Shown here one piece after another: positions 26,620 through 31,800 of a stretch of DNA of 64,000 nucleotides. This stretch comes from an uncultured Cohaesibacter sp. (GTDB taxonomy: Bacteria; Pseudomonadota; Alphaproteobacteria; Rhizobiales; Cohaesibacteraceae), in NCBI RefSeq assembly GCF_963676485.1, contig NZ_OY781114.1, forward strand, positions 2,012,501-2,076,500, given 5' to 3'. The position numbers were made by a program, and so were the translations under genes. Position 1 is the stretch's first letter. Every line of letters begins with the position of its first letter. The notes beneath the pieces were generated by a model. That model was given only the letters and a program-made list of their open reading frames with translations, had not been told where the DNA came from and did not search any database.

Positions 26620-27090
26620 ATGTTTGATAGCTTAATGCAGGTGTTTCGCGATCTCGCCGGTGCTTCGGAAGATACCAATGTCTTTTCCGACAGTGATCTG
26701 CGCGTGGCAACTGCCGCACTGCTGGTGCATCTGATGTCGATTGACGGCGTGGTCGATGACAACGAAACAGAAGAAATCCGCAAGGTGCTGAAAAAGCACT
26801 ATACCCTCACCGATGCGGAAACGGCCGAACTCATCGATTTTGCAAGCAAATGCGATGAGGAGTCGGTCGATCTGTACAAATTTACCTCCGTGCTCAAACG
26901 GGAGCTGGATGAAGACGGGCGCATCAAGATCATCGAAATGATGTGGCAGCTTGTCTTTGCCGACGGGCAGATTCACGAATTCGAAGACAATCTGGTCTGG
27001 CGTGTTTCCGAGCTGTTGGGTGTTTCCCGCCGGGATCGCATCCGGATGCGGCAGCATGTACAGGCCCAGATTGAAAAAGAAGCCGAATGA
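26620..27090 (+). CDS. TerB-like tellurite-resistance-domain protein
   Basis: The 156-residue helical acidic protein matches the TerB/DjlA-N fold: VATAALLVHLMSIDGVVDDNETEEI near residues 30-55 and a second acidic repeat MWQLVFADGQIHEFEDNLVWRVSELLGVSRRD near 108-138. The paired DG..D..E segments are possible metal sites. No other ter genes are nearby, so tellurite resistance should not be assumed. Its stop overlaps the start of the glutamine amidotransferase gene (ATGA), so the two are translationally coupled. The start is ATG 26620, with an overlapping TTG at 26614 as alternative. Confidence 0.85.
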   Translation: MFDSLMQVFRDLAGASEDTNVFSDSDLRVATAALLVHLMSIDGVVDDNETEEIRKVLKKHYTLTDAETAELIDFASKCDEESVDLYKFTSVLKRELDEDGRIKIIEMMWQLVFADGQIHEFEDNLVWRVSELLGVSRRDRIRMRQHVQAQIEKEAE

Positions 27091-27794
27091 GCGCCGATCT
27101 GCATAAAATATTGATCATTCTTCATCAGGAAACTTCCACGCCCGGTCGGGTCGGGTATCTTCTGGAAGAGCGGGGATTTGCTTTGGACATCCGGCGTCCG
27201 CGTTTTGGAGATCCTTTGCCCGACAGCATGAGCGATCATGCCGGTGCGGTGATCTTCGGTGGCCCGATGAGTGCCAATGACGAAGAGGATTATGTCAAAC
27301 AGGAGATTGACTGGATTTCCGTGCCTCTGCGCGACGAAGCGCCGTTTCTGGGCATCTGTCTGGGCGCGCAGATGATGTGCCGACAGTTGGGCGGGCAGGT
27401 GGAGCTGCACCCATGTGGGCTTGTAGAGCGCGGCTATTACGAGATTGCACCAACCGACGAAGGCGAAGCGCTGTTCGACTGGCCGCAAAAGGTCTACCAG
27501 TGGCACAAGGAAGGCTTCTCGCTTCCCTCAGGGTCCGAACGGCTGGCCAGCAGCTCCTATTTCAGCAATCAGGCCATGCGCTATGGCAAAAACGCCTATG
27601 CCATTCAGTTTCATCCGGAAGTCACTTTGCAGATGATGCATCAGTGGACGACCGTTGCTGCCGATCACCTCACTGCGGAAGGTGCCCGCAAGCGTGGGGA
27701 TCATTTCAGGGAACGGAGCGCCTATGATCCTTATGTCGAGCGCTGGCTGAACCGTTTTCTTGATTTGTGGATTGGTGCTGGTCCTGCCCGTTGA
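27087..27794 (+). CDS. Class I glutamine amidotransferase-like protein
   Basis: The 235-residue protein has the class I GATase fold with nucleophile Cys in FLGICLGAQMM (about residue 91) and the His-Glu pair in QFHPEV (about 172-174). It resembles stand-alone GMP-synthase-like amidotransferases and gamma-glutamyl hydrolases of the YfeJ/PuuD kind. Translational coupling to the TerB-like gene suggests that they act together, but no partner synthetase is adjacent. Glutaminase or gamma-glutamyl hydrolase activity is likely; the exact substrate is unknown. Confidence 0.9.
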   Translation: MSADLHKILIILHQETSTPGRVGYLLEERGFALDIRRPRFGDPLPDSMSDHAGAVIFGGPMSANDEEDYVKQEIDWISVPLRDEAPFLGICLGAQMMCRQLGGQVELHPCGLVERGYYEIAPTDEGEALFDWPQKVYQWHKEGFSLPSGSERLASSSYFSNQAMRYGKNAYAIQFHPEVTLQMMHQWTTVAADHLTAEGARKRGDHFRERSAYDPYVERWLNRFLDLWIGAGPAR

Positions 27795-27810
27795 TCGGGT
27801 TGCCATGTCA

Positions 27811-27842
27811 TGCAATTTGCATGAGAGGCTTTGCAAATTGCA
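27811..27842. promoter_or_regulatory. Paired dyads, possible activator sites of the sigma-54 promoter
   Basis: TGCAATTTGCA (27811-27821) and TGCAAATTGCA (27832-27842) are inverted copies of each other and each is itself a TGCAA-N-TTGCA dyad. Their centres are 21 bases apart, two helix turns, and lie about 150 bases upstream of the predicted start of the small RNA. This is the usual place for a sigma-54 activator. No T tract follows, so a terminator is unlikely. Confidence 0.5.
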
Positions 27843-27949
27843 GGTTGGATTCTTACCAAAGCCTTGATCCAATTATAGATTGATCTAGATGCTGTGGTGT
27901 TGATCGGAGCTTGTCTACTAGATGTGTTATTGTGGTTTTTTCTCACACT

Positions 27950-27964
27950 TGGCACGCCGCTTGC
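27950..27964 (+). promoter_or_regulatory. Sigma-54 promoter, full consensus
   Basis: TGGCACGCCGCTTGC matches TGGCAC-N5-TTGC exactly, with GG and GC at the -24/-12 spacing. The predicted start is near 27976. It lies between genes and is followed 45 bases later by an intrinsic terminator. Confidence 0.7.
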
Positions 27965-27975
27965 TCTTTAAAAGG

Positions 27976-28063
27976 CAAGCTGGCATTTGGTGTTTGCGTA
28001 GCCAGTACCTCATCTCATCAAGCCCCGATGCAAATGTTTTTGCGTATGTATCGGGGCTTTTTG
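27976..28063 (+). ncRNA. Candidate sigma-54-dependent small RNA (about 88 nt)
   Basis: The interval runs from the start predicted by the sigma-54 promoter to the end of an intrinsic terminator (AAGCCCCGAT / ATCGGGGCTT then TTTTT, 28020-28062). The 5' part can form a hairpin with stem CTGGC / GCCAG. A pyrimidine-rich linker, ACCTCATCTCATC, lies between the hairpins and could pair with Shine-Dalgarno sequences. No open reading frame with a ribosome site fits. The architecture of activator sites, promoter and terminated short transcript resembles known sigma-54-controlled sRNAs such as CrcZ or NrsZ, but there is no sequence homology claim. Function is unknown. Confidence 0.6.
28019..28063 (+). 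terminator. Intrinsic terminator of the candidate small RNA
   Basis: A 10-base stem with outer arms AAGCCCCGAT and ATCGGGGCTT and an inner GCAAA/TTTGC hairpin is followed by TTTTT. Confidence 0.8.
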
Positions 28064-28282
28064 TATTTTCAGGTTCTGCTTTTTCCAAAACTTAACACAG
28101 TTTTGGCATAAGGAAATTGGAGGGAAATCAGACCTTTTGTCTGCATTCAGCCCTTGCACGGTGCCATGTAGATCGCTACATGTCTCAACAGATATCCGGG
28201 GCGTTCAGCGCCTTTGCGGGTGCGTCAATATTTTGGAAAGCCGTATGGACCTAGGTCTCTTTTTCCGAAAACGAGGATGACT

Positions 28283-28561
28283 ATGACAGCTTTACTTCTT
28301 TTGATTGATCAGGTTCTGGCGATCTATACCTATATTGTGATCGCGTCTGCGGTGTTCTCATGGCTCTTCGCCTTCAATATCGTCAATCCGCGCAATCAGA
28401 TTGTCTCCTCGATTTACGAGATTTGCTGGCGGCTGACGGAACCCCTGCTTGGCCGTATCCGGTCCATCATTCCTGCAATGGGTGGCTTGGATCTGTCGCC
28501 GGTCATTCTGCTGCTAGGGATCTTCTTTGTGCGGAACCTGCTCAGAACCGGCCTCTATTGA
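28283..28561 (+). CDS. YggT family integral membrane protein
   Basis: The 92-residue protein has two hydrophobic regions (about residues 3-28 and 68-88) separated by the characteristic YEICWRLTEPLLGRIRSIIPAMGGLDLSPVI segment (residues about 44-72). The ATG at 28283 is preferred over one at 28277 because GAGG stands about seven bases upstream. YggT proteins are widespread two- or four-helix membrane proteins with suggested roles in osmotic shock or division; the function here is unproven. Confidence 0.92.
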   Translation: MTALLLLIDQVLAIYTYIVIASAVFSWLFAFNIVNPRNQIVSSIYEICWRLTEPLLGRIRSIIPAMGGLDLSPVILLLGIFFVRNLLRTGLY

Positions 28562-31784: not shown

Positions 31785-31800
31785 TACAAAAGCCGTGCCA
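31785..31800 (-). promoter_or_regulatory. Sigma-54 promoter of glnK–amt
   Basis: On the - strand the sequence TGGCACGGCTTTTGTA matches TGGCAC-N5-TTGC with one mismatch (T for the final C) and correct GG/GC spacing. The predicted start, near 31774, gives a leader of about 100 bases. Confidence 0.75.

Follow-up and report, generated by a model that had tools for sequence, protein, structure and literature searches.

A sigma-54 promoter and a predicted small RNA

The window, by which we mean the whole 64,000-nucleotide stretch of Cohaesibacter DNA that was analysed, carries a consensus sigma-54 promoter between the genes for a class-I glutamine amidotransferase and a YggT-family membrane protein, followed by a predicted non-coding RNA. 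The features of the region are as follows.

27087–27794, + strand: class-I glutamine amidotransferase (NCBIfam PRK06490), upstream neighbour
27810–27822, no strand: putative upstream activating dyad 1, ATGCAATTTGCAT, LuxO-site-like, approximately 160 bp 5' of the predicted start
27831–27843: putative upstream activating dyad 2, TTGCAAATTGCAG, with 9/10 fixed positions of TTGCAW3TGCAA
27950–27964, + strand: sigma-54 (-24/-12) promoter, TGGCACGCCGCTTGC, by direct sequence match
27976–28063, + strand: predicted small RNA of approximately 88 nt, non-coding, from fold, conservation and covariation
27979–28006, + strand: 5' hairpin, stem 27979–27984/28001–28006, loop with GGUGUUUGCGUA
28020–28063 (approximate), + strand: 3' hairpin and U run, intrinsic terminator
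28153–28182, + strand: conserved CTTGCA...GCTACAT element, probable sigma-70 promoter of yggT, from alignment
28283–28561, + strand: YggT-family membrane protein, downstream neighbour

The original prediction had placed a sigma-54 promoter here, with a transcription start at approximately 27976, and both proposals are borne out by comparison with relatives. The strict sigma-54 pattern TGGCACGNNNNTTGCW has five matches in the 5.08 Mb genome, against one in the reversed control, and TGGCAYG-N4-TTGC is kept in 16/16 loci found by DNA similarity; three further loci were picked up by a pattern in which this sequence is required. If the C of the -12 GC is taken as position -12, the predicted +1 is 27976. 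In an alignment of relatives the -24/-12 elements are conserved, a variable gap of approximately 10 nt follows and conservation resumes at the predicted +1, a pattern across promoter and RNA that takes the observation beyond chance.

Structure of the RNA

The 91 nt from 27976 fold with a predicted energy of -36.2 kcal/mol (z = -5.1), which none of 200 shuffled sequences equalled. A 5' hairpin and a terminator ending at 28063 had been predicted, and each is recovered. The six pairs of the 5' stem are 98.2% paired across 65 sequences, in an alignment that was fitted to the model structure and therefore leans towards a paired stem; in slid controls of the same alignment pairing falls to 4–55%. 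Compensatory change is also seen, since 62 cells of the stem are changed on both sides, giving 15 further pair types, and 0/500 shuffles scored as high. On one of the five measures used, the number of stem pairs with change on both sides, the observed value of five was matched by 78/500 shuffles. The 3' hairpin and its U run occupy approximately 28020–28063; in five relatives (L019, L022 and L054–L056) no U run directly follows the 3' hairpin, as judged by eye. Relatives differ by one-base gaps within the loop, which argues against a coding frame in the RNA, as had been proposed. The CCTC-containing linker to which the original prediction drew attention did not generalise, being common to L006–L009 and absent from the other 15 sequences aligned.

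It is the loops that are most constrained. The 5' loop, GU-n(1-4)-YGCGU, is nearly invariant, occurring in 77/79 and 27/30 distant sequences in two sets, and GACC sits at the apex of the 3' hairpin in 58/77 distant sequences; the window and the sequences closest to it have UUGCGU in this loop instead. Among most members from outside Cohaesibacter (L112, L113, L121 and others) the GACC of the terminator loop often appears as GCGACCCC. A kissing interaction between loop 1 (GGU) and loop 2 (ACC) was considered and is unsupported, the native and swapped combinations giving -7.44 and -7.37 kcal/mol, respectively. Five genes, namely glnK, ppa, the two neighbours and the activator described below, were examined for pairing of the RNA with their 5' regions, and in no case was the pairing unusual relative to shuffles.

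At the gathering score no Rfam family matched the RNA of the window or the RNAs at 20 distant loci, and at E values up to 10 there were five matches, all to unrelated families. Rfam includes a Qrr model, and this gave no match at the gathering score. Taken together, the comparative sequence data strongly support a sigma-54-dependent small RNA gene at 27976–28063.

Distribution of the RNA

A DNA search of 61 genomes (the genome itself, 17 of the same genus and 43 further ones) detected the locus in 15/18 Cohaesibacter genomes, and weakly in G056. A covariance search of related genomes, which the original prediction had suggested, indicates that the RNA is widespread in the order. Model R1, which comprises promoter and hairpin and was built from 19 sequences, finds the RNA in 18/18 Cohaesibacter genomes and, at E ≤ 1e-4, in 82 of 397 genomes of the order Hyphomicrobiales, spread over 16 families; 64 of the R1 loci lie outside Cohaesibacter, among them L120, which is known as a model match only. 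For searches of more than 40 genomes the filters were set more strictly, at the cost of weak matches. Model R2 was run on a class-level sample (385 genomes) and a phylum-level sample (398 genomes), each of which includes some members of the order, and gave no credible member outside it.

Several candidate matches were rejected. Two within the order (L157 in G308 and L253 in G382) are missing the loop. Two matches from the class set and five from the phylum set, together with L239 from within the order, carry the loop motif in 0/8 cases, and none has a dyad with two mismatches or fewer. L237 has an AGCGU loop variant, which also occurs in two accepted loci of the order (L259 and L269), and was rejected because it lies inside an open frame of 582 codons, while two pattern matches labelled ‘Brachymonas’ fall within a long frame whose translation resembles a sensor kinase. 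Five weak second matches in Cohaesibacter (L193–L197) are without the UGCGU loop and were not accepted as a second copy of the RNA. Tandem copies approximately 200 bp apart are present in three genomes of genus g129 (L119:1501–1763, L120:1801–2062 and L141:1808–2062).

The upstream dyads match the LuxO site

The LuxO binding site is given as TTGCAW3TGCAA in the available text of two papers (PMC10162802, PMC11443567), and both putative dyads resemble it. They lie approximately 145–165 bp upstream of the predicted start in the window and roughly 90–175 bp upstream in relatives. The distance between dyad 1 and dyad 2 is 21 bp in 15/15 Cohaesibacter loci, and in the alignment of this genus the two dyads, the promoter and the RNA are kept as one unit. 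Three more Cohaesibacter loci were inspected, of which L056 has the dyad pair, L055 has one dyad and L054 runs into the end of its contig; at the G056 locus the dyads are 12 bp apart.

Covariance models R1 and R2 contain no dyads, and dyads at loci found with these models are therefore an independent test. Each locus was scored by its best match to TTGCANNNTGCAA in the interval from -200 to -60; the rejected matches and the loci of family f32 (see below) were left out, and G312 was counted once. Among the 121 distinct, though related, loci that remained, a dyad with at most one mismatch is present in 84 and with at most two in 116; G198 has a best match with three mismatches. Broken down by locus set, with G312 in two sets, dyads with at most one mismatch occur in 12/16, 38/48, 14/30 and 21/27 loci. 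By comparison, shuffling of the 64 loci of the first two sets gave 1.7–2.3% at this level and 11–16% at two mismatches, and downstream controls gave 1/64 loci with at most one mismatch and 5/64, 2/32 and 1/30 (three sets) with at most two. A combined dyad-spacer-promoter pattern has a single match in the window's own genome, at the RNA, and falls at the RNA in 14/18 Cohaesibacter genomes, with six other matches in five genomes.

A LuxO-like activator is found with the RNA

A search of the genome for sigma-54 activators at E ≤ 0.001 gave ten matches, of which seven are true activators and three read as Clp ATPases. NtrC, FlbD and NtrX score above their NCBIfam cut-offs; the other four were named AtoC-like (L042), LuxO-like, DctD-like and PrpR-like by best match or by reading of the results. 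The LuxO-like protein is encoded elsewhere in the chromosome:

G000:C1:561657–563156 (= L050:9658–11160): LuxO-like activator

Its best NCBIfam match is LuxO, at 464 bits compared with 366 for the next family, and its best PDB match is LuxO 5ep0. The LuxO model scores 289–399 bits on five of the other activators and is not listed for the PrpR-like protein. Since the cut-off of the LuxO equivalog (NF041946) is 800 bits, the protein is, on these scores, a homologue of LuxO and not LuxO proper. Of 11 helix-turn-helix residues reported as critical in LuxO in the accessible part of PMC11407668, a hand alignment finds nine in the LuxO-like activator versus four to six in the other six. LuxO was also the best NCBIfam match of 8/8 distant homologues that were scanned.

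The receiver domain of the activator falls below the Pfam cut-off, and by alignment a threonine occupies the expected position of the phospho-acceptor aspartate in 18/18 Cohaesibacter activators (L050:9658–11160 and L060–L077), while the aspartate is kept in many other genomes of the order. No LuxU-like domain was found among nine neighbouring ORFs that were scanned. Given the threonine and the weak receiver, the Vibrio phosphorelay, in which LuxU feeds the receiver aspartate, cannot be assumed for the Cohaesibacter protein, and its input would have to be a different one.

All 18 Cohaesibacter genomes encode this activator (74–100% identity), as do 142 of the 397 genomes of the order at E ≤ 1e-85. 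The 82 genomes with an R1 match and these 142 share 74 (72 after the two rejections), and the co-occurrence calculated without Cohaesibacter has a Fisher p of 1e-23, with kinship ignored and the two later-rejected shared matches included. R2 was then applied to every activator genome that lacked an R1 match (68) and to 68 chosen at random from the 247 with neither. At E ≤ 1e-4 it found the RNA in 48/68 of the former versus 1/68 of the latter; the loop motif is present in 45 of the 48 loci and a variant in three (L217, L259 and L269). In total the RNA is present in 120/142 activator genomes, again ignoring kinship, and 22/142 are without it at the thresholds used.

Eight genomes have an R1 match and no activator. 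Five of them belong to family f32, as does the single R2 match among genomes with neither, and in two of the eight the assembly is incomplete (61% and 71%). The f32 loci (L129, L151, L153, L228, L250 and L252) thus have the RNA without a LuxO-like gene at the threshold used; a dyad with two mismatches or fewer is present in 0/6 of them, and the amidotransferase gene is kept in the four that were tested (L129, L151, L153 and L228). If LuxO-like proteins use the dyads, absence of the dyads is what would be expected in a family without the activator.

Comparison with known sigma-54-dependent RNAs

LuxO-Qrr is a textbook sigma-54/sRNA switch and has, to our knowledge, been described only in Vibrionaceae. 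In common with the Qrr1–5 genes, the RNA described here is preceded by a -24/-12 promoter and by TTGCAW3TGCAA dyads (often two), is accompanied by a LuxO-type activator, and is encoded by an sRNA gene of approximately 90–110 nt that is sometimes present in several copies (here in tandem in L119, L120 and L141). The two systems differ in that the RNA here matches no Rfam family, the activator lies below the LuxO cut-off and, in Cohaesibacter, lacks the receiver aspartate, no LuxU-like domain was found in the nine neighbouring ORFs scanned, the organisms belong to another bacterial class and the dyads are farther upstream. CrcZ/CrcY and GlmY are other RNAs with sigma-54 promoters, and their activators and sites differ from those found here; they are alike in being sigma-54-driven sRNAs, and unlike in that the RNA here has no Rfam match. 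The rhizobial trans-sRNA families AbcR/ar15, ar7 and ar14 are in Rfam and come from the same order and size class, yet none is matched at the gathering score.

The available text of the following sources bears on this comparison. LuxO dyads of Vibrio fluvialis have been reported at -89 to -120. Reciprocal best hits of LuxO outside Vibrio, including one in Bradyrhizobium, have been listed without an RNA (PMC524169). AbcR and the Vibrio Qrr RNAs are treated separately in PMC4211561, and a Caulobacter paper mentions Qrr for comparison only (PMC12559287). Work on S. meliloti sRNAs and transcription start sites places predicted sigma-54 promoters in front of sRNA candidates or start sites; it lists seven sigma-54 activators, none of which is named LuxO in the parts available (PMC2573895, PMC3616915). 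Among the papers listed, in the accessible portions of the open-licence literature, we found no description of the RNA, of the circuit or of a cognate RNA for LuxO homologues from outside Vibrio.

A proposed Qrr-like circuit and its alternatives

We consider it probable, at roughly three chances in four, that a LuxO homologue switches on a Qrr-like RNA that is not of the Qrr family. The promoter, the dyads, the covarying hairpin and the co-occurrence with the activator, each established at the level of sequence, all point this way. The LuxO-like enhancer-binding protein would bind the two upstream dyads and, bound to DNA, would loop onto RNA polymerase–sigma-54 and fire the -24/-12 promoter. 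The product would be an RNA of approximately 90–110 nt with two hairpins and conserved loops, GU-n-YGCGU in loop 1 and GACC in loop 2, or UGCGU or similar in most Cohaesibacter. By analogy with Qrr under LuxO, these loops would most likely pair with target mRNAs in trans.

A wider reading is put forward tentatively, at somewhat below even odds. Control by LuxO with an sRNA may not be a Vibrio invention; in a branch spread over one alphaproteobacterial order, the partner of a LuxO homologue may be a two-loop RNA unrelated to Qrr, the signal may, in Cohaesibacter at least, bypass receiver phosphorylation, and the RNA may represent a new family of riboregulators acting through two conserved loops. 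If true, this would be a parallel circuit with the same operator, a homologous activator and an unrelated RNA, and one could ask what LuxO proteins sensed and controlled beyond quorum sensing in Vibrio, and whether the RNA of an activator may be swapped while its site is kept. As many genera would gain an sRNA with a predicted regulator, a single deletion could test the circuit.

The original prediction had linked the RNA to nitrogen or carbon status. The sRNA gene itself withstood comparative analysis, while the status link was not upheld, given the LuxO-type dyads and the co-occurrence data. In its most direct form the link would run through NtrC, acting on this promoter as on that of the neighbouring glnK-amt operon. 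This operon does have its own -24/-12 promoter, as had been noted (31786–31800, - strand), and the genome encodes NtrC and NtrX. The promoter is nonetheless separate, and the dyad upstream of glnK, GCACAATCAATGTGC (GCAC...GTGC), is of a different type from the TTGCA-N3-TGCAA dyads of the RNA, which are also unlike the consensus NtrC site. The RNA furthermore tracks the LuxO-like gene and not NtrC or NtrX, and NtrC has 4/11 of the LuxO-critical residues in the hand alignment. Nitrogen control through NtrC is therefore very unlikely, and the proposed link between glnK-amt and the RNA is not supported. The promoter might be served by some other sigma-54 activator, for example the AtoC-like protein (L042), or by activators that differ from family to family; the LuxO resemblance of the site would then be a shared property of Fis-type helix-turn-helix domains. 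In V. fischeri the sites of a second activator, SypG, do overlap LuxO sites, according to the available text of PMC10162802, and since family f32 has the RNA with neither LuxO-like gene nor dyads, another activator can serve there. Overall such an activator seems unlikely, because co-occurrence and the match in critical residues single out the LuxO-like protein.

With control by the LuxO homologue as the preferred reading, it may still be asked what the RNA does. Its two loops, each often containing UGCG, could contact a protein instead of pairing with mRNAs; this would be compatible with LuxO control and would agree with nearly invariant loops on covarying stems. Such loops would equally suit a conserved mRNA target and no protein partner is known, so that we regard this as the less probable mode of action while giving it some weight. 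Alternatively the element might not be a free sRNA at all, acting in cis as the 3' end of the amidotransferase mRNA or the leader of the yggT mRNA. Both neighbours are indeed conserved in Cohaesibacter: the amidotransferase gene is upstream in 16/16 loci and yggT downstream in 15/16 (duplicate L003 not counted), and among six Cohaesibacter loci both are present at five and neither at L054, where the stretch ends on the upstream side. Distant loci show less synteny than those of Cohaesibacter: an amidotransferase gene lies within 2 kb upstream, in the same orientation, in 26/51 and yggT is present in 8/51, and each occurs six times in 32 further distant loci analysed with 1.5 kb flanks. Because protein information plays no part in the models, these neighbours are independent support for the distant loci. 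Many distant loci have the promoter-hairpin unit without these neighbours. The RNA also has its own promoter and terminator, and the conserved CTTGCA...GCTACAT element downstream of it is probably, from its alignment, a sigma-70 promoter of yggT, in which case the RNA would be a separate unit. A role in cis is hardly credible on this evidence.
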